This document shows, in pieces, positions 12,364-42,940 of a stretch of 53,643 nucleotides of DNA. The translations under genes were made by a program, and so were the position numbers. The DNA comes from a virus, in IMG/VR virus record IMGVR_UViG_3300008267_000515, positions 1-53,643 of that record; one strand, written 5' to 3'. The notes beneath the pieces are model-generated. The model made no database searches. It was not told the DNA's origin and was given only the letters and a program-made list of their open reading frames with translations. Position 1 is the stretch's first letter, and every line of letters begins with the position of its first letter.

Positions 12364-15300
12364 TTACTCCGGGAAATCAACTCCCCAATCGTCCGCAGCT
12401 TCCTGCCACTCCGCACGACGAGACTCTCTTGGTAGCGTTCCCCCCATCATAGCCGCGCTGTTTCTGGCCCGAGTCCGCATCGACTGTTGGAAGTCTTCGT
12501 TTTCTATAGCTTCCTCCGGGTACTGCCGACTAAACTCAATCATCTTCTGCATGACTTGGGCAAGCCCAGCAGAGTCTCCCATTCTGAAAGCTGTGTACGC
12601 GGCCGCGTATAGGTTTGATTTGCGCTCCCCAATGCGGCGATCAACGCCCGCTTGAACGCTCTTAAACTCCATCGTGCGAGCGTAGTCGGCTGGGGTGAAC
12701 CCCATAAACTGCGAGACCACCGTAATGGGAGAGATTTCAACGACATCGTCCCCGCGCAGGGTTTCTATAGCGCCATCTGTGGCAAACCGTATCGACTTGA
12801 GCACGTTGCTCATCGTAACCGGAACCATGCTTTCTATCCCGCGCAGGATTTCCCCCTGTTCAATCAATGCTTTTCCTCTCATGCCGCGTTCAAATGACCC
12901 AAACGCAGGGCCTCCGAAGTGGGCTGCCATGGTTTCTGCAAAACTTGCGTCGTCGGGGAGGTTGGTGTCGCGTACCAACAAGTCTGTCAGGGACCCACGC
13001 TCTGACACGTTCATGTTCAACAGCGTGTTTGGCAACCCCTCATACACCAGCGGGTCTAGGTTAGCGCGCAGCATGTTTTGAATAAACTTCTCTTCCTCTT
13101 CGTCGTCAACAAAAGGCGCGGCGAGCACGTTGAGCAGAAGTGCTACAGGCCCAAACAACGGCATCCCTTGCACACCTACTATCGCACCAGATGTCAGAAG
13201 CACGGTCGAACCGAACTTACGGGCCGCCGCTTTTACTACAATGTTATCGTTCATGGTGGCGTCATATAGCGTCTTCACCTGCACATACATCTGACGGAAC
13301 GCAAAAGAACGGTACATAAACGCAACACGCCAGAAGTTGTCTCTCTGGAATCCGGGTCCAGTAACTGGAGTGGAGCCGCCGTTGAGCAGTCTGCTCATTT
13401 CCATGGCGTCGGTCGCTGCCTTTTCCATTTGCTCTTGAGTGGCGCGGTTGGGGTCGCCGTTATTGGTTACCTCTGCCAGCGCAAGATCGTAGTAGGCTTT
13501 TAACCCTGTTTCTCGCTTGTAGCGCTCACTGGTGCTCATCATGAACCCCATACGCGCTGACAGTTTTGACAACAGGTTCCCCTCACCAAACTCGGCACGT
13601 TCTTCCAAGTCAGAGAATCTTTCCGAGTGACCGTGGTCTTGCACTTTTTTTACAAGCGCTCTGAGGTACCCGTACTTCTTTGCTTGCTCGGGATTGTTGA
13701 AATCAATGTTCAGCATAGACGGCATCACTCGGCGCCGCGTCACATCTCGCTCATTGATGCCCGCGGTGGCCATCGCTTCTTGCAACGCCGCACCGTCCAA
13801 TCCTTGAGTAACCATGGTCTCTACGTCGGCAGTGGTGCCCATACCCAAAATATCACGGCCCGCTTTTACCAGCGCTGCATGTGCCTTTCTACGGCTCTTG
13901 AATCGGCCGGACAAGTATCCCCCCGTTACCATCAAGGACAGCATGTCCACCACCGCAGAAGACACGTTGAACCCCAACGTCCACCCATAGGTACCGGTTG
14001 TCAGCACATTTGAAATCATGTTTTGATTGGGGTTTGCCGCGTAGGCTGCTCGGTTGCGAACTTCGGCAATCAATAACTTAACAGTGGGATCGATTTTGAC
14101 GTTGCTGCGCGTGGCCTCCATGTCTCTAACTTCTTTTGACATCTGCGCGCTGTACTTCATGTTAACAAGTTTGCGCTGCAGGCCGACAACACTTTCTTGG
14201 AACGCAGCAAACGCATCCAGTGTGTAGCCCGGGGTTTCTTTCCGGGCAGCCAAACGCTCCATCACTACTTGAGCAGGGGACACGGATATACCCAGCTCCA
14301 TGACAGCCGCTAGTACATCAGCGCTCGCGCCGTTGTTTTTAAGGGTCTGCACAAGATCGCCCATGAAGCTGGTTGGAACGATGCCGTCAAACACATCTGT
14401 CTCCCCGTGCAAGAACGGTGTCATGGCGTCTTTGCTAACGCCATCTTCGGTCAACAACTGCTGCTGTCTAGCTTTCCAATCAGCTGAGTTTTCAAACGTC
14501 TCAAAGTATTGCTGATCGGAACCCGGTAGGAAGTACTTAATCCGGTATTCCCCGTTGCTACGAGTCAGCGCCGCGTAGCCCTCAAGTCCGCGCAGTTTCA
14601 TCTGCTCGGTGAACTTATTCTTGATAGTTGTAGCGAGGTCCGCGTTTTGCGTCTCTGAGTACACACGGTCGTAAACCTGCTGCGTTATACCGTTGAACAC
14701 TCTGTTGTAGATAGCGCGCATCTGTCGGTAGATCGCCGCGCCGCCTGACGGCTCTAGTTTTTTGAGCACTTTTTCAAGACGCTCGTACTCTTTAAGTTGC
14801 GCAGGGTTCCCGGCGTACGTGCTTTTAGGCTTGGTAAGATCAACTTTGCCGAGTGTGCCGCCGTACACCAACGCGTTCATGTCTTCGTATAGGTCCGGGT
14901 TAGCCTTGCGCCAATCACCCATGCGAGCAAGCTGCGCAGTGATACCGTCAATAAACTGCCGCATCTCCCCTTCTAACTTGTCAGCAATCTGCGTAAACCG
15001 ACCGAAGGACGCCGCAAACGGCGCATAGTCCGGCCCCTTTTTCTTCACGTATGACTGCACGTAGTCATTTATTTGATCCAGCCCGAGCCCCCATACCATT
15101 GCCCGAGTGACAGCTTCCTGTCCTTTATCAAACAGAGCGGCAACGGCACGTTTGAATTTCGGGGCTTTTACCGGAGTAGACGCCCTAATCAACTGCTGAC
15201 CTTGCACGTTCAGGAAGCGCACGTTGGCCGCAGGGGACTGGTCGGTGAGAGCCTGTTCGGCTGCCTTCTGAGTTCGTGTGATGTTTTCAGCGGCGCCCAT

Positions 15301-16209
15301 ACGTTTTGTCAGGTCAAGGAGTTCCTCTACCGTGCCGGATTCAGACGCCGGTAGGCCAACAACACGGCGTATGGCGTCAACAAATCGACCCCACCAGTTT
15401 TGCCGTTTGAGAAGGCTTTGGAACTTTGGATTTGTTATACCTTCGGCAACAAACTCATAGGGGTTTTCAAAACCGTACGCATCAGACTCCGGGTGCTGCG
15501 CCTTGTACTGTTCAAACAACCGCACTACCCGCGCGCCTTCAGGGGTGCCCCGGGCAATAGCGTTGACTGTCATGGGGTGCACAAACTCGTGCACAAAAGT
15601 CTGTGCAACCGAATCGGCTCGCGGGTCCAGATAGATCGCTTCGTCCCCCTTGGACGGGTGCACGTACTCCCCCACGATGCTTGGATCGTCGTATCGTTGC
15701 TCAATAACTGGGACTGCGATGTTTGGTGCAACACGCAGCATAGACCGCGCAATATTGCGCAAAGGCTGAGGTACGTCTTTGTCCTGTGTGATGGCCCGCA
15801 GTATCTGCGCCGGTGTCGTTTTCTTCTCCACCATCTGCATGATGCGTTGGTTGGCTGGAATGTTGGCAGCTTCTTCGCGCTTGGGTTGGACGGCGTTGAA
15901 CTTGTTGGGTAGCGCAATCTCGCTGCGCCTTACGCTGCGGGCGTAATCGTTGTAGATGGTAACCTGTTCGGGCAACGAGAACTGCGCAATCGCCCCCCTC
16001 ACATCAGCGGGGAGAGCTTTCCCTGTGGTATCTTGAAACACTTGCGCAAGTTGAGTTTGATCCGCGTTGTTAATCGCACGAGTAAGTTTCGTTCTAAACG
16101 CTTGCTCTTCTTTTGCCACCGGCGTAATTGGCTCAACGGCGGGCTCCACAACGGGTTCCACAACGGGCTCCACAACGGGCTCCACAACGGGCTCCACAAC
16201 GGGCTCCAC
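12364..16209 (-). CDS. Giant internal virion-type protein, C-terminal fragment (zincin motif, LPD-like)
   Basis: Encodes 1281 residues from an ATG inside the VVEP repeat, but it is better read as the C-terminal three quarters of one protein with the gene at 15999-17366. Residues 207-211 are HEFVH, an HExxH zinc metallopeptidase motif, in a FVHEFVHPMT context, with a later YEFVAEG that could supply the third ligand. The remainder is long and helical, with hydrophobic stretches near GYTWGTTL and VVDMLSLMV-type segments, as in the polyvalent proteins and DarB-like internal virion proteins injected with phage DNA. It is the last gene of the late operon. Confidence 0.8.
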   Translation of the reverse strand: MEPVVEPVVEPVVEPVVEPVVEPAVEPITPVAKEEQAFRTKLTRAINNADQTQLAQVFQDTTGKALPADVRGAIAQFSLPEQVTIYNDYARSVRRSEIALPNKFNAVQPKREEAANIPANQRIMQMVEKKTTPAQILRAITQDKDVPQPLRNIARSMLRVAPNIAVPVIEQRYDDPSIVGEYVHPSKGDEAIYLDPRADSVAQTFVHEFVHPMTVNAIARGTPEGARVVRLFEQYKAQHPESDAYGFENPYEFVAEGITNPKFQSLLKRQNWWGRFVDAIRRVVGLPASESGTVEELLDLTKRMGAAENITRTQKAAEQALTDQSPAANVRFLNVQGQQLIRASTPVKAPKFKRAVAALFDKGQEAVTRAMVWGLGLDQINDYVQSYVKKKGPDYAPFAASFGRFTQIADKLEGEMRQFIDGITAQLARMGDWRKANPDLYEDMNALVYGGTLGKVDLTKPKSTYAGNPAQLKEYERLEKVLKKLEPSGGAAIYRQMRAIYNRVFNGITQQVYDRVYSETQNADLATTIKNKFTEQMKLRGLEGYAALTRSNGEYRIKYFLPGSDQQYFETFENSADWKARQQQLLTEDGVSKDAMTPFLHGETDVFDGIVPTSFMGDLVQTLKNNGASADVLAAVMELGISVSPAQVVMERLAARKETPGYTLDAFAAFQESVVGLQRKLVNMKYSAQMSKEVRDMEATRSNVKIDPTVKLLIAEVRNRAAYAANPNQNMISNVLTTGTYGWTLGFNVSSAVVDMLSLMVTGGYLSGRFKSRRKAHAALVKAGRDILGMGTTADVETMVTQGLDGAALQEAMATAGINERDVTRRRVMPSMLNIDFNNPEQAKKYGYLRALVKKVQDHGHSERFSDLEERAEFGEGNLLSKLSARMGFMMSTSERYKRETGLKAYYDLALAEVTNNGDPNRATQEQMEKAATDAMEMSRLLNGGSTPVTGPGFQRDNFWRVAFMYRSFAFRQMYVQVKTLYDATMNDNIVVKAAARKFGSTVLLTSGAIVGVQGMPLFGPVALLLNVLAAPFVDDEEEEKFIQNMLRANLDPLVYEGLPNTLLNMNVSERGSLTDLLVRDTNLPDDASFAETMAAHFGGPAFGSFERGMRGKALIEQGEILRGIESMVPVTMSNVLKSIRFATDGAIETLRGDDVVEISPITVVSQFMGFTPADYARTMEFKSVQAGVDRRIGERKSNLYAAAYTAFRMGDSAGLAQVMQKMIEFSRQYPEEAIENEDFQQSMRTRARNSAAMMGGTLPRESRRAEWQEAADDWGVDFPE

Positions 16210-27142: not shown

Positions 27143-27393
27143 TCTGGACCATCTCCACCATTGATTTTAGCCCACGCACCCAGCATCAGGATGCCCAGAA
27201 CAAACACTGTTCCTGCCTTGGCAATGGTCTGCCAAACAACTTTCTTCATGCCGCGCCAATCACCAACTAAGGATCGCAATTCGCGTACATCGTTGCCCGC
27301 GTCATCGTCGTGCAGGCCGACTTCTTTGAGGACAGATTTCATCTCTTCGCGGACTATCATGCGTAGGGCTATTTCAGCATCGTGAGTCCTCAA
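27139..27393 (-). CDS. Small membrane protein, DUF6127-like
   Basis: Encodes 84 residues: an amphipathic REEMKSVLKEVGL helix, an acidic DDDAGNDVREL turn, a WRGMKKVVWQTIAK helix and a C-terminal transmembrane helix. This pattern matches the small DUF6127 phage membrane proteins. The start is TTG at 27393, overlapping the kinase gene; an ATG at 27360 is an alternative but would remove part of the conserved helix. Probably part of the lysis cluster. Confidence 0.6.
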   Translation of the reverse strand: MRTHDAEIALRMIVREEMKSVLKEVGLHDDDAGNDVRELRSLVGDWRGMKKVVWQTIAKAGTVFVLGILMLGAWAKINGGDGPE

Positions 27394-27796
27394 CCAGTTT
27401 GGTAATTAAATCCACGTAGTAGGTGGGGTAATCGCACTCTGCCGTCACTCGCACATCGTACTGCTCAGGCGGGACAAAGAGCCGATTGGTATCCTCAAAG
27501 CGCCCTGCTTTAATGCGATCTACCCACACTACAAAGTCTGCATTAAACACCTTTCGGGTGGTCTCGGTGGGGCAAACAAAATCCGCAATAACATTTCCAT
27601 ACTTACCGGCTATGTCACACAGGTGCCCCATCCTGCGGGCTTGCTCGATCCTGTCCTCAAAGCTAAAACCCAAGTCCTTGTTGATGTGCTTACGGATGTC
27701 GTCTGCGTTAAAGTGCGGACACCGCAGTCGTTCTGCCAGAGCTGTCGCCAGTGTGGTCTTACCGGCGTTGGGCAATCCCATCACAAGGATTTTCAC
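27374..27796 (-). CDS. Adenylylsulfate (APS) kinase-like P-loop kinase
   Basis: Encodes 140 residues. The P-loop is GLPNAGKTT (residues 7-15), followed by FNADDIRKHINKDLGFS and EDRIEQARRMGHL, close to the substrate-binding loops of APS kinases, and by an ADFVCPT segment matching their lid region. APS kinases make PAPS, the sulfate donor of sulfotransferases. The protein is shorter than bacterial CysC and lacks part of its C-terminus, so the true substrate is uncertain. Similar genes are common in aquatic phages. The nearby sulfotransferase domain makes a PAPS role attractive. Confidence 0.8.
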   Translation of the reverse strand: MKILVMGLPNAGKTTLATALAERLRCPHFNADDIRKHINKDLGFSFEDRIEQARRMGHLCDIAGKYGNVIADFVCPTETTRKVFNADFVVWVDRIKAGRFEDTNRLFVPPEQYDVRVTAECDYPTYYVDLITKLVEDSRC

Positions 27797-28185
27797 AGCA
27801 GAGCATCAAGCTCGTCGTGAGTCGTAGCAGCTTCAATCGCAGCGATCTTAGGCGCAACGGCGTCCTTAGCAGCTTGCAACTTAGCCGGGTCATAGGCAGT
27901 CGGGTCGTTCATCTGCTTCTGCATCTCTTGTTGAAAACCAAAGCTGGCATTTGCCTTCATGCCGTTCTTACGGTCTGCAACTTCAATGTTGTAAGTGCCG
28001 TACACAATCTGCACTGGGTCAGTGGTCAGATCAAACGTGTGGGCAGTGTAGCCCTGACGGTGTGCAGTGATAGCAGGGCGTACTTCAACGGCATTCTTCC
28101 AGCCATCGTTGCCCACGCCAGCAGGTGGCAAAGTGTCCCAGCATTGTTTAACTTCGTTGTTCTGTACTTGTACGTAAAGTGCCAT
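27793..28185 (-). CDS. Tail assembly/structural protein of unknown type
   Basis: Encodes 130 residues. The first 75 are beta-rich (MALYVQVQNNEVKQCWDT, then VQIVYGTYNIEVADRK). The C-terminal 50 are an Ala/Gln-rich helix. The mix resembles small tail-fibre assembly proteins that lie after fibre genes, which is also its position after the RCC1 genes in transcription order. Confidence 0.55.
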   Translation of the reverse strand: MALYVQVQNNEVKQCWDTLPPAGVGNDGWKNAVEVRPAITAHRQGYTAHTFDLTTDPVQIVYGTYNIEVADRKNGMKANASFGFQQEMQKQMNDPTAYDPAKLQAAKDAVAPKIAAIEAATTHDELDALL

Positions 28186-28216: not shown

Positions 28217-29371
28217 TTAAACTGCTATTGTGCACGATTGCCCAGTTGTTATTTGAAACCAAACACCAGAACCCACCTGCACAGGGCTGGAACGGTTAGT
28301 TGCGTCGCCCAGACCTAATTGACCGGAGGTGTTTTTCCCCCAAGCCCATAATGTGCCGTCTGTTTTGATAGAAAAAGCTTGCCCCTCACCGCCAGAAGCC
28401 ACCGTTAGCCAAGTAGTCAATGCACCAACTTGTTTGGGTGAATTATAAGATGTAGTGTTTCCTAAACCTAACGACCCAACAGCGCCGTAACCCCATGTCC
28501 AAAGAGTACCGTCTGTCTTAGAAGCAACAGCGTTTGCATAATAACCGCCGCCAGACACATTTAACCACGCCGTTAATGCGCCTACCTGCTTAGGACTAGA
28601 ATAACTAGTTGAATTTCCCAAACCAAGTGCGCCGGTATTATTTTTACCCCAAGACCAGAGTGTGCCATCGGTCTTGATGGCCCAAGTTGAATAACTTGTG
28701 GCTACCTTCAACCAACTAGTAAGTGCGCCGACTTGAACAGGTGATGAATAGTTAGTTACGTTGCCTAAGCCTAATTGGCCATTGGCGTTTACTCCCCACG
28801 CCCATAGCGTACCGTCCGTCTTAATGGCTAAAGAAGAACCGACAAGATAATTTCCACCTGCAAAACTTAACCAGTTTGTAAGTGAACCAACTTGCTTGGG
28901 GGAAGAATAGTTGGTTGTATTACCTAAACCTAATCTGCCTGAATTACCCGAACCCCATGCCCAAAGAGTGCCATCTGTTTTTATGGCAACACAACTTTGC
29001 CTTACTTGATATACCTTCAACCACGTAGTCAAAGCGCCAACTTGTTTAGGAGATGAATAGTTGGTGGTGTTTCCTAAACCTAGCTGTCCAGAGGAATTAG
29101 CTCCCCATGTCCAAAGGGTTCCGTCAGATGCAACCGCAGCAGCAGCATTGTCGCTGATTGAGGCAGATCGCCAGTACAAAGCTCCAACGTGTTTAGGTGA
29201 GGAATAGGTAGTGGTGTTGCCTAAGCCAAGTTGACCGCTGCCATTTATCCCCCAGCTATACAGCTCAAAAGTGTTATAAGCCGCAGGCCAAGTCCCCAAC
29301 GCCTTAGCATTAGCTTGGCTGCTGAGGTTCCAGATTCCACTGTATTGAACGCCTGATATGATTATGGGCAT
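28217..29371 (-). CDS. RCC1-repeat beta-propeller tail protein, type A (7 blades)
   Basis: Encodes 384 residues. After an N-terminal anchor (SGVQYSGIWNLSSQANAKAL) come seven repeats of about 50 residues with the pattern LWSWG, GQLGLGNTTxYSSPKQVGALT, AIKTDGT, which is the RCC1 fold and predicts one seven-bladed propeller. RCC1 proteins of phages lie among tail genes and probably act in receptor binding. The anchor matches that of the gene at 32278-33438. Sequence is AT-richer than the rest of the late block. Confidence 0.85.
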   Translation of the reverse strand: MPIIISGVQYSGIWNLSSQANAKALGTWPAAYNTFELYSWGINGSGQLGLGNTTTYSSPKHVGALYWRSASISDNAAAAVASDGTLWTWGANSSGQLGLGNTTNYSSPKQVGALTTWLKVYQVRQSCVAIKTDGTLWAWGSGNSGRLGLGNTTNYSSPKQVGSLTNWLSFAGGNYLVGSSLAIKTDGTLWAWGVNANGQLGLGNVTNYSSPVQVGALTSWLKVATSYSTWAIKTDGTLWSWGKNNTGALGLGNSTSYSSPKQVGALTAWLNVSGGGYYANAVASKTDGTLWTWGYGAVGSLGLGNTTSYNSPKQVGALTTWLTVASGGEGQAFSIKTDGTLWAWGKNTSGQLGLGDATNRSSPVQVGSGVWFQITTGQSCTIAV

Positions 29372-29378
29372 AGTTGTC

Positions 29379-30503
29379 TCAGTATTTAAGGGCTATGGTA
29401 CGGGAACGCCCACCAGCAGTTTTATACCACGTAGTGAGTGCGCCTACTTGGTTAGGGGATGAACGGTAAGTCACATTACCCAAGCCTAGTTGCCCAAATT
29501 GACTATTGCCCCAAGACCAAAGAGTTCCATCAGTTTTAATAGCTAGTGAAAAACCAAAACCGCCCGCAATCACTGACCAGCTAGTTAAAGCTCCTATTTG
29601 TTTTGGGGAAGAGTAATAAGTGAGGTTGCCTAAGCCAAGTTGACCGTTTTGGTTTTTTCCCCAAGCGTAAAGCGCGCCTGCTGTTGTAGTTGCTAGGGTG
29701 TGGTAGTTTCCGCACGCAACAGTGAGCCACGTAGTTAATACACCAACCTGTTTGGGAGACGAGTAAGCAGTTGTGTTCCCTAAGCCAAGCTGTCCATCTG
29801 AGTTAGCTCCCCAAGACCATAGAGTGCCATCGGTTTTAGTAGCTACGGTTAAGGCAGAACCTGCGGCAATTTTATACCACGTAGTTAATGCACCTACCTG
29901 TTTTGGACTAGAGTAGTATGTAGTGTTGCCTAAACCAAGTACACCTTGTGTACCAGCTCCCCAAGACCATAGCGTTCCATCGGTTTTAATTGCAATAGCA
30001 CTGCTAGTGCATGACGCAATAGTTGACCACGTAGTTAAAGCACCTATTTGTACTGGTGAGGAGTAACTGGTTGTATTTCCTAAACCTAATTGTCCTGCCG
30101 ATCCTTTTCCCCAAGACCACAATGTACCGTTTGTTTTAATGGCTAATGAAAAAGCATACCCACACGCAACAGTGAGCCACGTAGTGAGTGCGCCTATTTG
30201 TTTTGGGGATGAGTAGTAAGTTGTGTTGCCTAACCCCAATCTGCCATTTGCATTTACACCCCAAGACCAAAGAGTTCCATCTGCTTTAGCTGCAATTGTA
30301 TGGTACTGCCCACACGCAATACTTAACCAATTAGTTAATGCACCAACTTGTTTAGGGCTAGAGTAGTTAGTGAGGTTGCCTAAACCAAGCTGCCCATACG
30401 CTCCTTGCCCCCAACTATACAGCTCATAGGTAAACGTAGTCGTCTGCGCCCCCAGAGCATTAAACCCCGGCTTGTTTATGCCAGAACCGTATCTAAAGCT
30501 CAT
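29379..30503 (-). CDS. RCC1-repeat beta-propeller tail protein, type B (7 blades)
   Basis: Encodes 374 residues. The N-terminal anchor reads KPGFNALGAQTTTFTYELYSWG, shared with the gene at 33447-34430 and not with the type A pair. Seven RCC1 repeats follow, each with a WG at the blade core. The ATG overlaps the stop of the sulfotransferase-glycosyltransferase gene (ATGA), so the two are coupled. The two anchor types suggest attachment to two different virion partners. Confidence 0.85.
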   Translation of the reverse strand: MSFRYGSGINKPGFNALGAQTTTFTYELYSWGQGAYGQLGLGNLTNYSSPKQVGALTNWLSIACGQYHTIAAKADGTLWSWGVNANGRLGLGNTTYYSSPKQIGALTTWLTVACGYAFSLAIKTNGTLWSWGKGSAGQLGLGNTTSYSSPVQIGALTTWSTIASCTSSAIAIKTDGTLWSWGAGTQGVLGLGNTTYYSSPKQVGALTTWYKIAAGSALTVATKTDGTLWSWGANSDGQLGLGNTTAYSSPKQVGVLTTWLTVACGNYHTLATTTAGALYAWGKNQNGQLGLGNLTYYSSPKQIGALTSWSVIAGGFGFSLAIKTDGTLWSWGNSQFGQLGLGNVTYRSSPNQVGALTTWYKTAGGRSRTIALKY

Positions 30504-32269
30504 CCAACGCTCCTCAGCATGGGCTTCTCGCCCAAGCGGTTTCTAATGTGGTCAAACGGAGCTTCCCACTCGCCAAAGGTCTCCTGACGGAACAGCTTCA
30601 TTGTATCGTAGTAAGGGCAGGTATCGCCCTCCATTGCGTACATAAAGTAGCCCATCACCGGGATCACGACCCAAGTCTCTACGCCCATCGCAGCAGCCAA
30701 GTGACTTACCGAAGTGCAGGAGGATATTACCAAATCACATGACGCAACAGCATTGCGGGTGTCTTCCCAAGTGTTCAACGGAACCTGCTTCACCCACGCT
30801 GGGCACGAGTCAGCGCCCTCGTCTCTCTGTAGGCTAATGAACTCAGCATCACAGTCCTTCACAGCATGGAACATCAGCTCGTATGGAAACTTCTTGTGAT
30901 GCTCATGTTCAAACTTAGACTGACCCTGCCATCTAAGCCCAATGCGCTTCTTGCGGTTCTTAATTGTCTTAGGCTTGGCGATGTACGGAGCGCCCGACAG
31001 GTCGTCTAGTTCTAGTCCCAACGGCACCACAGCGGACATACCCTGCACAAAGTAGTCATGGTAAATGCCAAAGGTAGCCTCGTGCTGAATGACTGCACTA
31101 ACGCCTTCTACGCCTACAAACAGACTAGCTAAAGCACCGGAGCAGGACACGACTACCTTGCAGCCACGTTGAGCGATGAGCTTAGCAAAGCGTACTTGGT
31201 GAATCTGGTCGCCTAAGCCGCCTTCTAGGTACAGCATGACGACGCCTTTAGACTTACCGTCCCACGGCTGGGTGGGCACATCAGGACGCTTGTTACCGAA
31301 TACACCTGACTGACGACCACGATCCATCAACTGATAGCCTTTCTGTATTTGCCCTTGTGACAACAAGTACCAGCCTCGGTTGTAGGCTGCTCGATGATTA
31401 GCAGGCTCTTCGGCTTCTAGCTTCTGGGCCAGTCTCCAGCCTTCAGCAAAGTCACCAATAGTAGAAGCAGCTAACTGTAAGTCTAAATCGTGTAGCTCAG
31501 GGATGGTTCTAGGCTGTGGTAGCCAGAACTCAGGCTGGCAGAACGTGCTGTAATGGTGCTTCAGTAAGTCTTTAGGGTCTTGTCTGTGCTGGGCTTCTAG
31601 GACGGGTTTAACATCGTGCATACCGGCAGTGCCGTGAAGTTGCTCGTCATCTTCGGCTACTGTAGAGCCGTCAATGTTATTGAAGTCGTACTCAAACGCA
31701 GGCAGGTCTAGGAAGGCGTGTACCCGCGCCAGTTGCTCTTTAGGGCTGGCGATAAGGTCTTCATACTCTACAAACAGGAAGTTCTCAGGAGCGTAGTTGT
31801 AGCCTTCTTGCAGGGAGATGTACGCAGCCCGCAGGTGATCCATTAACTGACCAGATGCCATGAACTCGTCCAAATCGGCAGGCTTCTCAATGCGGACAAA
31901 GGAAGCAGCGCAGTCAGGGACAGAGCGAACGGTAGCGATGATCTTAGGCTTACGGTCGAGCACTTGCGTCATTGCCGCCATGATCTGGGAGATAGGCCAG
32001 CCCCTAGACTTATCAATCACTACCGGCTTGTCAGTGTCCTCGTAGAACGCATCAATCATCCCGCGCATGGTCTGAGCCAGCTTGGTACGGGTAGGATCGT
32101 TCTGGTTGAGCAATCCAGCAGAGTGCCACGTGTTAGCCAAGCCATCCAGCGCATGAACCAGACCAGACGTAGTGGATACGTGGGTCATGGGGTTCTGGTT
32201 GAGGATAGCCGCTAGGACTGTTGAGCCTGAACGCGGTACGCCTGAGAGAAAGTGTAGTTGTTTTTGCAT
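30500..32269 (-). CDS. Sulfotransferase-glycosyltransferase fusion with TPR linker
   Basis: Encodes 589 residues. Residues 1-260 are a PAPS-dependent sulfotransferase: the 5'-phosphosulfate loop is SGVPRSGST (9-17) and a 3'-phosphate-binding segment reads ATVRSVPDCAASF near 110. Residues about 285-335 look like TPR helices (AAYNRGWYLLSQGQIQKG). Residues 350-589 form a GT-B-type glycosyltransferase C-terminal region with GGLGDQIHQVRFA, IGLRWQG and SCTSVSHLAAAMG, as in TPR/GT9-type enzymes. The ATG at 32269 follows AAAGGA and avoids overlap with the upstream gene, unlike the upstream in-frame ATG at 32332. It may modify virion proteins or host glycans. Confidence 0.85.
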   Translation of the reverse strand: MQKQLHFLSGVPRSGSTVLAAILNQNPMTHVSTTSGLVHALDGLANTWHSAGLLNQNDPTRTKLAQTMRGMIDAFYEDTDKPVVIDKSRGWPISQIMAAMTQVLDRKPKIIATVRSVPDCAASFVRIEKPADLDEFMASGQLMDHLRAAYISLQEGYNYAPENFLFVEYEDLIASPKEQLARVHAFLDLPAFEYDFNNIDGSTVAEDDEQLHGTAGMHDVKPVLEAQHRQDPKDLLKHHYSTFCQPEFWLPQPRTIPELHDLDLQLAASTIGDFAEGWRLAQKLEAEEPANHRAAYNRGWYLLSQGQIQKGYQLMDRGRQSGVFGNKRPDVPTQPWDGKSKGVVMLYLEGGLGDQIHQVRFAKLIAQRGCKVVVSCSGALASLFVGVEGVSAVIQHEATFGIYHDYFVQGMSAVVPLGLELDDLSGAPYIAKPKTIKNRKKRIGLRWQGQSKFEHEHHKKFPYELMFHAVKDCDAEFISLQRDEGADSCPAWVKQVPLNTWEDTRNAVASCDLVISSCTSVSHLAAAMGVETWVVIPVMGYFMYAMEGDTCPYYDTMKLFRQETFGEWEAPFDHIRNRLGEKPMLRSVG

Positions 32270-32277
32270 GGAATCCT

Positions 32278-33438
32278 TTAAGTTGTTTTGATTGCAAGGG
32301 TAAAGTATGCCCCGCCAGATACAGAACCCCAAGCTGTTAGAGAGCCTACTTGCTTAGGGCTGGAGTATTGAGTGGTATTACCTAACCCTAATTGTCCATT
32401 GGCGTTACCACCCCATGACCACAAAGTGCCGTCAGTTTTAGTTGCTACTGAATGTATGTATCCAGTGGCAATGTTCAGCCAAGTCGTTAAAGCTCCAACT
32501 TGATTAGGGGATGATTTGTATGTGAGGTTGCCTAAGCCAAGTTGACCGTTACTATTTGATCCCCATGACCATAACGCACCGGAAGTAGTAGTTGCCAGTG
32601 TAAAGTTACTTTTATGGGCTATATTAGCCCATGTAGTAAGAGCACCAACTTGTTTTGGTGAAGAGTATGCGGTTATATTGCCCAACCCTAATTGCCCATT
32701 AGCGTTGTACCCCCACGCCCAAAGCGTACCGTCTGTCTTTGTTGCTATCGTAGAATCCGAACCCCCTGCTATTTTAAACCAAGCAGTTAAAGCACCTATT
32801 TGTACTGGCGATGAATAGGAAGTAATGTTGCCTAAACCAAGTCGCCCATTTGCCCCATTTCCCCAAGCCCATATAGTGCCGTCAGTTTTGACAGCCACAG
32901 TGTGATTATTCCCACACGTTATTGCAGACCAAGTAGTAAGTGCGCCTACTTGTTTGGGGCTAGAATAGTTAGTTGTGTTACCTAGACCTAGTTGCCCTGA
33001 AGTATTTAAACCCCAAGTCCACAGCGTACCGTCTGTTTTGATGGACGCAATATAGTTTTTTCCTGTTGCAACTTTGTACCAACTAGTAAGAGCACCGACT
33101 TGTTTGGGCGATGAATAGTTAGTGGTATTGCCTAATCCCAACTGACCAAAAACGTTACGACCCCAAGTCCAAAGCGTCCCATCTGTCTTAGCGGCTACAG
33201 AAAAGTAGGCATCATAGCCCCCGCCTGCAATATTAAGCCAATTAGTTAATGCACCAATTTGTTTAGGAGATGAGTAACTAGTGGTGTTGCTTAACCCTAG
33301 CTGACCGTAAGTGTTTTGCCCCCAACTATACAATTCTGGCAATCCCGTCCAAGTCCCCGCAGCCAAAGCAGCGTTCACCTGATTCATTGTCCAGATGCCT
33401 GAGTATTGAACGCCTGATATTACTGTTGAGGAGGGCAT
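32278..33438 (-). CDS. RCC1-repeat beta-propeller tail protein, type A (7 blades)
   Basis: Encodes 386 residues. The anchor VISGVQYSGIWTMNQVNAAL is of the same type as that of the gene at 28217. Seven RCC1 repeats are visible, so one full propeller is expected. Repeats within and between the four RCC1 genes are so alike in DNA that recombination between them is likely. It is followed nine bases later by the sulfotransferase-glycosyltransferase gene. Confidence 0.85.
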   Translation of the reverse strand: MPSSTVISGVQYSGIWTMNQVNAALAAGTWTGLPELYSWGQNTYGQLGLSNTTSYSSPKQIGALTNWLNIAGGGYDAYFSVAAKTDGTLWTWGRNVFGQLGLGNTTNYSSPKQVGALTSWYKVATGKNYIASIKTDGTLWTWGLNTSGQLGLGNTTNYSSPKQVGALTTWSAITCGNNHTVAVKTDGTIWAWGNGANGRLGLGNITSYSSPVQIGALTAWFKIAGGSDSTIATKTDGTLWAWGYNANGQLGLGNITAYSSPKQVGALTTWANIAHKSNFTLATTTSGALWSWGSNSNGQLGLGNLTYKSSPNQVGALTTWLNIATGYIHSVATKTDGTLWSWGGNANGQLGLGNTTQYSSPKQVGSLTAWGSVSGGAYFTLAIKTT

Positions 33439-33446
33439 ATTGTTTC

Positions 33447-34430
33447 CTAATACTTAAGAGCTACACAGAAATAAGTGCCCGATACAGAACTCCACGTAGC
33501 AAGTGCCCCTATTTGTTTAGGGGATGAATAACTAGTCGTGTTGCCTAAGCCTAATTGACCGCTGCTATTACTTCCCCAAGACCATAGTGCGCCGTCAGTT
33601 TTTACTGCGCTTGAAGCGTTAGCACCACAAGTCACCTTAGACCACGTAGTTAACGCTCCAACTTGCATAGGGGATGAATAGCTAGTGGTGTTGCCTAACC
33701 CTAGCGCACTAGAACCTCCACTCCCCCACATCCATAGAGTGCCGTTGGTTTTGATTGCTGCGCCTACATAACTAGCCCCTGCAACGGTAGCCCAAGCAGT
33801 AAGTGCGCCTACTTGCATTGGGGAGGAGTAGTAAGTGGTGTTACCCAAACCTAATTGCCCAGTGTTGTTAAGTCCCCATGTCCAAAGCGTACCGTCTGTT
33901 TTAACGGCAAGGCACATACTGGCTCCCCCGCCCGCAATACTTGCCCACGTAGTTAATGCGCCAACTTGTTTGGGAGAAGAATAATCAGTCGTATTACCTA
34001 TACCAAGTTGACCATAAGTGTTTTGTCCCCAAGCCCATAAAGCGCCGCCTTTAATGGCAAGGGAGTGGTAATACCCAACAGCTACTTTAGACCACGTAGT
34101 AAGCGCGCCAACCTGCTTGGGTGAGGAGTAGTAAGTGACGTTATTTAAACCTAGCTGCCCGTTGTTGTTATACCCCCACGCCCAAAGAGTGCCGTCGGTT
34201 TTAGTAGCTAAACAATGGTAGTAACCGGCTGCAATAGTTGACCAAGTAGTAAGTGCGCCAATTTGTACCGGAGATGAGCGATTAGTTGAAGTGCCATCGC
34301 CTAGTTGACCAAGATTATTTTTACCCCAGCTATACAACTCATAGGTAAAAGTCGTGACATTAGTCTGCGCCCCCAAAGCGTTAAACCCCGGCTTGACTAT
34401 GCTACCTAGATTGTTATTCCGGATGCTCAT
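33447..34430 (-). CDS. RCC1-repeat beta-propeller tail protein, type B (6 blades)
   Basis: Encodes 327 residues with the KPGFNALGAQT anchor of type B. Only six RCC1 repeats are present, one fewer than in the other three proteins, and the length difference from the type B partner (47 residues) equals about one blade. One repeat also lacks the usual KTD (IKGGALWAWG), and one has GSGGSSALG instead of GQLG. A six-unit protein could close imperfectly or pair with another chain. The ATG overlaps the preceding stop by one base. Confidence 0.83.
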   Translation of the reverse strand: MSIRNNNLGSIVKPGFNALGAQTNVTTFTYELYSWGKNNLGQLGDGTSTNRSSPVQIGALTTWSTIAAGYYHCLATKTDGTLWAWGYNNNGQLGLNNVTYYSSPKQVGALTTWSKVAVGYYHSLAIKGGALWAWGQNTYGQLGIGNTTDYSSPKQVGALTTWASIAGGGASMCLAVKTDGTLWTWGLNNTGQLGLGNTTYYSSPMQVGALTAWATVAGASYVGAAIKTNGTLWMWGSGGSSALGLGNTTSYSSPMQVGALTTWSKVTCGANASSAVKTDGALWSWGSNSSGQLGLGNTTSYSSPKQIGALATWSSVSGTYFCVALKY

Positions 34431-34821: not shown

Positions 34822-35328
34822 TTATTGGGCGGCAAACGCGCCGTGGAATTTTTGACGCGCTTCATGGGCAACCAGTTCCGCAAGCTCAAAATCATCAAAA
34901 TATCCGATGTGTTTGATTGCCCGCCTCACGCCTACATACACTTGCCATTTGCTAATACGTTTGTGCCACACAACGCCTTTTGCCCCAGATTTGTTATTCT
35001 TGAACAACCCGCGATTTTGCATGTTTTCGCAACTATCAGCCACTCGAATATTTTCAACACGGTTGTCGAGCGAATTTTTATTGACGTGATCGACCTGCTC
35101 AGGCCACTGCCCGTAGTGCCACAAGTATACAAGTTTATGAACGCAGTAATGCTTTCCGGATATTTTAGTAATTAAGTATTTTTTGTCCGGCCTTTCTGCT
35201 CCACCCGTAGCAATAGAACCTATTTCCCTGCCAATCTGACCAGCAGGGCCACCGACCGCCACTTTGCGAATCAGTGCGCCGTCTTCTCGGTAGTCAAAAA
35301 GCCTGCGGACTTCTTCCTGTGTAATCAC
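34822..35328 (-). CDS. HNH homing endonuclease with AP2 DNA-binding domain
   Basis: Encodes 168 residues. The HNH core reads VHKLVYLW, then QVDHVNKNSLDNRVENIRV (about 78-97), then ENMQNRG. An AP2-like domain follows (SGAKGVVWHKRISKWQVYV, then HIGYFDDFELAELVAHEA). This is a free-standing mobile endonuclease that cuts at cognate sites lacking it, then copies itself by repair. It has a GTG start and lies between two tail genes without disrupting either. Confidence 0.92.
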   Translation of the reverse strand: MITQEEVRRLFDYREDGALIRKVAVGGPAGQIGREIGSIATGGAERPDKKYLITKISGKHYCVHKLVYLWHYGQWPEQVDHVNKNSLDNRVENIRVADSCENMQNRGLFKNNKSGAKGVVWHKRISKWQVYVGVRRAIKHIGYFDDFELAELVAHEARQKFHGAFAAQ

Positions 35329-36081: not shown

Positions 36082-36945
36082 CTAAGCCGCTTTATCTACG
36101 CTGACCCATGTGGGGGTCTGAGCGTCGTTTATGTTACCCCAATTCGGTGTCTGTGTATCGTTGACATTTGTCCATCCAGCTATTCTAACGGTACCTACCG
36201 CGCCTACACCAGCTACTCCGGTTGGTATAACGGCATCGTCAACCGATATGACTACACCACCTACAGCCCCAGTCCCAGCTACGCCCGTAACAGCCTTTCT
36301 AACCAGCGGCACTACGTTTTGGACCGCACCCGTGCCAACCACTCCGGTCACTGCGACATCGGTATCGTACGCAGGGGTAACAGTGCCTATCTCGCCGTCA
36401 CCTTCAACCCCGGCAAACACCGGGGAAAGCGACACACCCGCCGCTTCAACCGCGCCAGTGCCCTCAACGCCGGTTACTGCAAACGTAATGCGTGGGACTG
36501 CGCTGCCTATCTGTCCAGTGCCTTCAACACCTACGGGGATAAAGATAGCCGCTATAACTAGGTCTACGGTGCCTACTGCGCCTGTACCTTGCACCCCTAC
36601 AGGGATGACGATGTCATCAACCTGTACTTCAAACCCGCCCATCTCTCCAACGCCTTGTACGCTAGCAGAGACGATTGCTACTCGGGTTAGTACGGTGCCT
36701 ACTGCGCCTGCGCCTTCAACACCTACGGGGATAACAGAATCATTTACTGCAGTTACAACGTCCCCAACGGAACCAGTACCCGCTACGCCTGTAACACCAA
36801 TATTGGCGTCATAGATAAGCGCAACGGTACCAACTGCACCAGTACCTTGAACACCGTCCACCACATAGGCAGGAGCGATGCCCCCGAAGCCATTAAAGCC
36901 CCAAGCGCCTTCGCCCCAACCTTTATTGTAGGTGGTCGCGCCCAT
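36082..36945 (-). CDS. Tail protein made of eleven GVxGTGxVG repeats
   Basis: Encodes 287 residues. After a short aromatic N-terminus (KGWGEGAWGFNGFGG) come about eleven repeats of a 20-27 residue unit with core GVEGTGAVGTV and often an IPVG lead. The repeats read as a beta-solenoid or stacked beta-strand rod. The C-terminus has two copies of a NDTQTPNWG-like segment (TPNW, TPTW). It is likely an elongated fibre part. Copies differ enough to keep the gene stable. Confidence 0.72.
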   Translation of the reverse strand: MGATTYNKGWGEGAWGFNGFGGIAPAYVVDGVQGTGAVGTVALIYDANIGVTGVAGTGSVGDVVTAVNDSVIPVGVEGAGAVGTVLTRVAIVSASVQGVGEMGGFEVQVDDIVIPVGVQGTGAVGTVDLVIAAIFIPVGVEGTGQIGSAVPRITFAVTGVEGTGAVEAAGVSLSPVFAGVEGDGEIGTVTPAYDTDVAVTGVVGTGAVQNVVPLVRKAVTGVAGTGAVGGVVISVDDAVIPTGVAGVGAVGTVRIAGWTNVNDTQTPNWGNINDAQTPTWVSVDKAA

Positions 36946-42097: not shown

Positions 42098-42940
42098 TCA
42101 CGTTGCTGGAGGTAGGTCAACGTACTGAAAAACCAAGCCCGTAAATTGACCTTTTGTTATGGGGGAATTGGAGAGCAGCGCGCGTCGAAGCGTGGGCATC
42201 TTCATGCCGTAATGCTGCAGTACTGCGGTTAAGCTTGGGAATTGCATACCCGTTGTGGCCTCTAGCACCTGCTTGCTCATCTTCAGCTTTGACTCTTCCG
42301 AGTGCTTCTTTCCTAGCCAATTCTGGTTGCCCGTATTCGCTATAGAAAGGTTGCGGCGGTGTTCTTCGGTTCGGATGTGCCCCTTGGTGTTTTGGTTCCC
42401 CATCAAAGACGCAGACATTTTCTTTCGGGTTTCCTCTGAGGGGATAAAGCACCCGCCGCGCCCTTCAGCAACAACTTGCTGCACCTTAGCGGATATCAAC
42501 GCCTTAGTTTCATCGGTGTGTTTTTGCCCTGTACGGGGGTCTGAGGTGGTCCACTGATGTTTTGTCGCTATAGAAAGGATGGATTTAGCGTCCGCAGACA
42601 TAACTTTCCCGTAATTGGGGGTTGTATGCGCTGGGGCGTTTCTCCATGGGGCACTCGCGCTATACCCCGAATTGTAACAGTGCTCCTTGCCCACGTGCTG
42701 AACTAGGTATGTGTCCTCCACATCTAACAATGACCGGGTATCGGGCACTTCTTCTATAACTAGGAAGTCAAACTTGGACTCTCCATACTTATTCCACGCG
42801 GCTTGCAAGTGCTTGCAGTGGTGCCTATTCCCCCGTAACAGGTTACGGTGTTGTCGGAACCGTACTTTCTTATTAATAGTGCTGCCGACATAGAACTTGT
42901 CGTTTACTAAGTTGATAATTTTATAGATTACCTGCGTCAT
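42098..42940 (-). CDS. GIY-YIG homing endonuclease with NUMOD3 motifs
   Basis: Encodes 280 residues. The N-terminal catalytic domain shows IYKI...FYVGSTINKKVRFRQHR, matching the GIY-YIG family with a catalytic Arg and later Glu. The C-terminal half has several NUMOD3-like segments (SEETRKKMSASLMGNQNTKG, TEEHRRNLSIANTGN, HSEESKLKMSKQVLEA) followed by a helix-turn-helix-like end. Free-standing endonuclease placed just after the capsid gene, with its own promoter-like sequence upstream. It may spread by cutting capsid-adjacent DNA of related phages. Confidence 0.93.
   Translation of the reverse strand: MTQVIYKIINLVNDKFYVGSTINKKVRFRQHRNLLRGNRHHCKHLQAAWNKYGESKFDFLVIEEVPDTRSLLDVEDTYLVQHVGKEHCYNSGYSASAPWRNAPAHTTPNYGKVMSADAKSILSIATKHQWTTSDPRTGQKHTDETKALISAKVQQVVAEGRGGCFIPSEETRKKMSASLMGNQNTKGHIRTEEHRRNLSIANTGNQNWLGKKHSEESKLKMSKQVLEATTGMQFPSLTAVLQHYGMKMPTLRRALLSNSPITKGQFTGLVFQYVDLPPAT

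Follow-up and report, generated by a model that had tools for sequence, protein, structure and literature searches.

The question raised by this locus is why a virus should encode a sulfotransferase and a glycosyltransferase in one polypeptide, and why the gene should lie among genes for RCC1 propeller proteins. The DNA analysed is a viral stretch of 53,643 nucleotides (IMG/VR record IMGVR_UViG_3300008267_000515), referred to here at its full length as the window. The fused gene, its parts and its neighbours are as follows.

33447-34430, minus strand: RCC1 propeller protein, proposed substrate (Pfam RCC1, 5e-69)
32278-33438, minus strand: RCC1 propeller protein, proposed substrate (Pfam RCC1, 8.7e-82), 8 nt upstream of the fused gene
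30500-32269, minus strand: fused sulfotransferase, TPR-like and GT-B glycosyltransferase protein (open reading frame, Pfam, AlphaFold2)
31520-32269, minus strand: sulfotransferase domain, aa 1-250 (Sulfotransfer_3, profile against the PDB, Foldseek)
32219-32236, minus strand: PAPS 5'-phosphosulfate loop PRSGST, aa 12-17 (conserved to at least 97% across 60 diverse fused proteins)
31901-31927, minus strand: PAPS 3'-phosphate motif R115...S123 (at least 97% conserved in the same 60; aligns with VR...S of PAPS enzymes)
31307-31489, minus strand: two TPR-like helical hairpins, aa 261-321 (four helices in the AlphaFold2 model)
30530-31243, minus strand: GT-B glycosyltransferase domain, complete in the AlphaFold2 model, aa about 343-580 (Foldseek: OGT, SPINDLY, TibC, WaaF)
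31208-31219, minus strand: GLGD motif with D354, the catalytic Asp position of GT9 enzymes (Asp in 78 of 79 sequences)
30701-30718, minus strand: C518-T-S-x-x-H523 donor-site motif, with Asp in GT9 (Cys in 77 of 79, His in 78 of 78)
29379-30503, minus strand: RCC1 propeller protein, proposed substrate (Pfam RCC1, 7.5e-84), its start overlapping the stop of the fused gene (ATGA)
28217-29371, minus strand: RCC1 propeller protein, proposed substrate (Pfam RCC1, 7e-67)
27793-28185, minus strand: 130-aa protein adjoining the RCC1 cluster on its downstream side (with homologues in nearly all of the first 80 loci)
27374-27796, minus strand: APS-kinase-like protein of 140 aa, proposed PAPS supply (PF01583, PDB profile match)

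The fused open reading frame runs from an ATG at 32269 to a stop at 30500 and translates into 589 aa. The sequence AAAGGA lies immediately 5' of this ATG; an alternative longer frame starts at a TTG at 32332, within the upstream RCC1 gene. A first-pass annotation had located the gene correctly, on what is the minus strand, and had described it as embedded among propeller genes and overlapping the next one. This agrees with the gap of 8 nt upstream and the overlap of 4 nt downstream. The APS-kinase-like gene was overlooked by the annotation. The four RCC1 genes and the fused gene are co-directional and lie inside the late block. From 50.8 kb downwards, the order in the window is terminase, portal, major head protein, virion structural proteins and the RCC1 cluster, followed by endolysin, further virion structural proteins and an ejection protein. 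From gene position, we infer that the RCC1 proteins are located in the virion tail. The 130-aa protein at 27793-28185 matched no Pfam or PHROG family.

The same annotation had claimed a three-part architecture of sulfotransferase, TPR-like helices and GT-B glycosyltransferase, which is now supported by Pfam for the sulfotransferase and by AlphaFold2 and Foldseek for the rest. The AlphaFold2 model used was built with an alignment of 83 relatives and has a mean pLDDT of 93.9 and a pTM of 0.81; from the single sequence, pLDDT was only 34. Loss of the PAPS site or of the sugar-nucleotide site had been named as the result that would overturn the claim, and both appear intact in the predicted structure.

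The sulfotransferase half scores 58.8 bits with Sulfotransfer_3 (PF13469; 1.2e-15, cut-off 27) and 3.8e-11 with Sulfotransfer_1, the sulfotransferase matches in Pfam spanning aa 7-197. A profile search against the PDB gave a match of 1e-10. The GVPRSGST loop occupies aa 10-17, and both features of PAPS-dependent sulfotransferases, the 5' loop (P12-T17) and the 3' Arg/Ser motif (R115 and S123), are present. In Foldseek against the PDB, tyrosylprotein sulfotransferases (TPST) take ranks 1-13, the best at 2.4e-8, with olefin synthase sulfotransferase and heparan 3-O-sulfotransferases below them. TPST1/2 are thus the closest solved fold as well as a profile match. They differ from the phage half in being Golgi enzymes with a catalytic Glu, whereas the phage protein would work in bacterial-virus cytoplasm and the Glu is absent. 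The catalytic residue of TPST is a Glu in the GEETR region, and this position aligns with Thr34 in the fused protein (Thr in 64 of 65 sequences). Membership of TPST was therefore rejected, and catalysis must differ from that of TPST. The best-named family for the loop is NoeE, which sulfates a Nod-factor sugar.

Models for TPR match the relatives L158, L161 and L356, one of the three above the cut-off; in the window's protein, TPR_16 and Glyco_transf_9 both stay under their Pfam cut-offs. In Foldseek against the PDB, the glycosyltransferase half matches Thermobaculum OGT (1.8e-5), SPINDLY (2.4e-5), TibC (3e-5) and WaaF (2e-4). In GT9 enzymes, the Asp of GxGD is catalytic and a second Asp acts at the donor site in a D-[TS]-G/S-x-x-H motif. 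The phage half has the first (D354), but Cys518 replaces the second, and its Glyco_transf_9 score is 11.4 bits against a cut-off of 22. OGT and SPINDLY (GT41) join TPR to GT-B as the phage protein does, although GT41 enzymes are without a sulfotransferase and the phage protein has just two TPR-like hairpins. Glyco_transf_41 (PF13844) gave no match up to E=1 in the fused protein, so the likeness to GT41 is one of fold only. TibC forms a dodecamer, has an N-terminal domain of its own and lacks a sulfotransferase, and the phage protein differs from it also in having Cys518 for the GT9 donor-site Asp. Genes for autotransporter heptosyltransferases of the TibC type adjoin the gene of the repeat adhesin that is modified. 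Against the viral library BFVD, the top match (A0A6J5KP87) spans the TPR and glycosyltransferase half of the model, and no full-length fused entry was found among the matches listed. By architecture, a near parallel is FlmG, a TPR and GT-B protein of Caulobacter crescentus that O-glycosylates flagellins (PMC7591256). In both proteins a TPR region precedes GT-B (in the model, helices 261-321 and then GT-B), and in both a self-assembling surface protein is, or in the phage would be, modified in the cytoplasm. FlmG is bacterial, however, and lacks a sulfotransferase. In fold, both halves most resemble protein-modifying enzymes, TPST for the sulfotransferase and OGT, SPINDLY and TibC for the glycosyltransferase, as judged from the model.

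Across 60 diverse fused proteins spanning 38-86% identity, G351, G353, D354, C518, T519, S520 and H523 are at least 97% conserved, as are the PAPS motifs. Both activities therefore appear to be under selection. On sequence grounds, the fused gene is not a chance join, as hundreds of relatives retain the two halves together with the active-site motifs of each. In IMG/VR, pattern scans recovered at least 426 stretches encoding the fused protein, on contigs from a few kb to more than 100 kb, and additional relatives occur at 38-60% identity.

The fused gene travels with RCC1 genes. In a non-redundant set of 173 fused genes, 168 are no more than 5 kb from an RCC1 gene, and the direct upstream neighbour encodes RCC1 in 149 of the 164 whose neighbour is known; some of the five without RCC1 inside 5 kb are near the edge of the scanned DNA. 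The linkage was also approached from the RCC1 side, with 60 loci chosen by RCC1 similarity alone and collapsing to 41. A sulfotransferase, a glycosyltransferase or both were present in 31 of these: 15 fused, five with split sulfotransferase and glycosyltransferase, nine with glycosyltransferase alone and two with sulfotransferase alone, some of the single-enzyme loci being cut by contig ends. Seven of the ten loci without either enzyme are short or break off close to RCC1, and three long ones (L374, L392 and L393) lack both within the DNA scanned. In INPHARED, this type of RCC1 occurs in four of five records with a TPR-glycosyltransferase (hypergeometric 6e-14, or 1e-10 minus a RefSeq copy, shared ancestry being ignored), and MW202512 has a distant TPR-glycosyltransferase gene without RCC1. 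Three loci carry a second, divergent stand-alone sulfotransferase near the fused gene (L033:11105-11884, L034:11459-12241 and L233:9746-10528).

The same set of genes is also found unfused. The cyanophages S-SRM01, S-SKS1 and BUCT-ZZ01 encode a homologous sulfotransferase (25-29%) or glycosyltransferase (26-33%) as separate proteins. In S-SRM01, a cultured Synechococcus phage, both are surrounded by genes for RCC1 proteins and tail fibres. The order RCC1, RCC1, glycosyltransferase, RCC1, sulfotransferase is shared by S-SRM01, AG-345-E08 and L275. After a run of RCC1 genes, sulfotransferase precedes glycosyltransferase in L356, L367 and L387 and follows it in L378 and L385. The set of sulfotransferase, glycosyltransferase and RCC1 thus persists through changes of order and fusion, and this is stronger evidence than mere shared synteny. 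The TPR-glycosyltransferase protein of BUCT-ZZ01 continues into a methyltransferase-like domain (below the cut-off), and its gene (L160:5857-7572) immediately follows one for RCC1 ('BNR repeat'). In the viral contig L275 (3004-16922), three RCC1 genes are accompanied by 2OG-Fe(II) oxygenases, an APS-kinase-like gene and separate TPR-glycosyltransferase and sulfotransferase genes that flank an RCC1 gene.

In quick FastTree trees of each half, which contain some long branches, the fused proteins group in a single clade, apart from truncated rows and a few cases that appear to have split later. The fusion was thus computed to be mostly a single event, as far as the sequences indicate. The separate sulfotransferase of L158 is sister to the fused sulfotransferase clade, and its glycosyltransferase falls within the sister group of the fused glycosyltransferase clade. 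This MAG contig (L158:1990-10956) carries cysD, cysN, cysC, a separate sulfotransferase, a separate TPR-glycosyltransferase and two GT41 genes, with the cysD, cysN and cysC matches directly before the sulfotransferase gene. Its appearance is that of a bacterial locus for sulfation and protein glycosylation in a pre-fusion state. An origin of the fusion itself on a bacterial chromosome was considered and rejected: six loci came out of a genome scan, and L154-L157, the four with the fusion, resemble phage contigs inside MAGs and have RCC1 genes no more than 5 kb away.

A source of PAPS may lie downstream. The gene at 27374-27796 scores 50 bits with APS_kinase (PF01583; cut-off 21.1), and in the PDB it is closest to PAPS synthetase 1 (6.8e-9). 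It has NADD in place of the DGDN substrate motif and is therefore named APS-kinase-like. Such a gene is found downstream in 72 of 102 fused loci (those with at least 5 kb downstream), three of five split loci and none of 14 loci with glycosyltransferase only. This amounts to 75 of 107 sulfotransferase-bearing loci against 0 of 14 (Fisher 3e-7, shared ancestry ignored; single-enzyme rows at contig ends were set apart as truncations). The NADD motif would also fit a protein that makes no PAPS but provides the glycosyltransferase with an activated sugar or other small-molecule donor, or serves sulfur assimilation. About half of the matched genes (57, against 48 of short form) are of a long form, and those checked carry a C-terminal cytidylyl/NMN-adenylyltransferase-like domain (GRxQPWHxGH), which points the same way. 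Such a role is nevertheless considered rather unlikely, given that APS_kinase is the best Pfam match in most of the genes scanned and scores 29 bits above its cut-off in the window gene, that PAPS synthetase 1 is the nearest solved structure, and that the gene accompanies the sulfotransferase and is missing from all 14 loci tested that have only the glycosyltransferase.

The fusion almost always adjoins RCC1 genes, and in many loci an APS-kinase-like gene is close by, so the phages probably add sugar and sulfate to tail proteins of their own. The preferred reading, drawn from sequence and models and judged probable, is that, ahead of virion assembly, a bifunctional cytoplasmic enzyme glycosylates and sulfates the RCC1 tail propellers of the phage itself. 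Docking of the RCC1 substrate would probably fall to the TPR-like linker, and the GT-B half would use a nucleotide sugar to glycosylate surface loops of the propeller. Sulfation by the PAPS-dependent half would follow, most likely on that sugar and less likely on Tyr, and the APS-kinase-like gene would replenish PAPS. The phage tail would thereby carry an anionic sulfated glycoprotein, which perhaps tunes receptor binding, stability or protease resistance.

Phages alter host surface glycans, and the first-pass annotation had offered these as a target beside the RCC1 proteins. Modification of RCC1 is strongly favoured by a linkage that persists through fusion, splitting and reshuffling in unrelated phages, while no positive support emerged for the host surface. 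On the latter reading, sugar and sulfate would be added to LPS, capsule or exopolysaccharide, blocking superinfection or aiding release, and the RCC1 proteins would be linked to the enzyme as binders of that surface. It could draw on the resemblance of the glycosyltransferase half to the LPS heptosyltransferase WaaF, which is cytosolic, and on the likeness of the sulfotransferase loop to NoeE. However, WaaF is outranked by OGT, SPINDLY and TibC, TPR domains suit protein substrates, and linkage to RCC1 in late co-directional structural blocks fits the timing of virion assembly better than an early surface change. A host-surface target is thus improbable, though it is the main competitor of the preferred reading. 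Least likely is direct, TPST-like sulfation of RCC1 tyrosines with the glycosyltransferase acting separately and no sulfated sugar formed, since the fold of the sulfotransferase half and the Tyr that precedes SSP in 61% of RCC1 loops in close relatives are set against the Thr at the TPST catalytic position and the Arg/Lys that replaces this Tyr in distant fused and split loci retaining the sulfotransferase.

The candidate acceptor loops were compared between loci. The SSP motif occurs in 85-93% of RCC1 loops across the enzyme-bearing groups. N-X-S/T sequons are present in 82% of SSP loops in close relatives and in 68% of fused-locus loops, but in 35-50% in distant fused, split and glycosyltransferase-only loci, so the sequon is no signature of the enzyme. 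Similarly, the loop Tyr was rejected as a signature, as it varies by clade. An RCC1 control from Clostridioides and Brevibacillus yielded no usable loops when the loop pattern was applied. In L001 and L002, the fused protein is 97-98% identical to that of the window and the RCC1 proteins just 53-64%. This gap suggests rapid turnover of the adhesins and is expected if receptor-binding proteins evolve faster than their modifier.

The function of phage sulfotransferases has been described as unclear (PMC10580990), and phage cysC is usually read as assimilatory sulfur metabolism (PMC9611531). For one large and widespread group of aquatic phages, the RCC1 linkage provides a concrete and testable answer on the first point, and the proposed module an alternative on the second. 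The fused protein is a candidate for a single polypeptide that places a sulfated sugar on a protein. More tentatively, the genes may form a complete virion-decoration module, in which the APS kinase makes PAPS and the fused enzyme builds a sulfated glycan on the RCC1 tail propellers. The product may then be the first virion protein of a phage to be sulfated, and part of phage cysC would serve virion modification. If true, phage-encoded enzymes set the virion surface chemistry of abundant aquatic phages, with consequences for receptor binding, decay and host range. The kinds of enzyme involved are known. In a literature search with most subscription papers and preprints outside it, no published description was found of a sulfotransferase-glycosyltransferase fusion or of a phage module joining it with RCC1, nor any publication joining 'regulator of chromosome condensation', phage and sulfotransferase.

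Several other features of the window were recorded. A near-identity DNA search of its first 24 kb against INPHARED gave no match, and no tRNA genes were found in the window. A 287-aa protein (36082-36945, minus strand) consists of degenerate V-x-G-V-x-G-x-G-A-V-G-x-V repeats and has no family match. The 1281-aa protein at 12364-16209 (minus strand) resembles DarB-like antirestriction proteins in its C-terminal part. An HNH endonuclease with an AP2-like domain (34822-35328, minus strand) lies between the structural genes and the RCC1 cluster, and a second homing endonuclease is encoded at 42098-42940.
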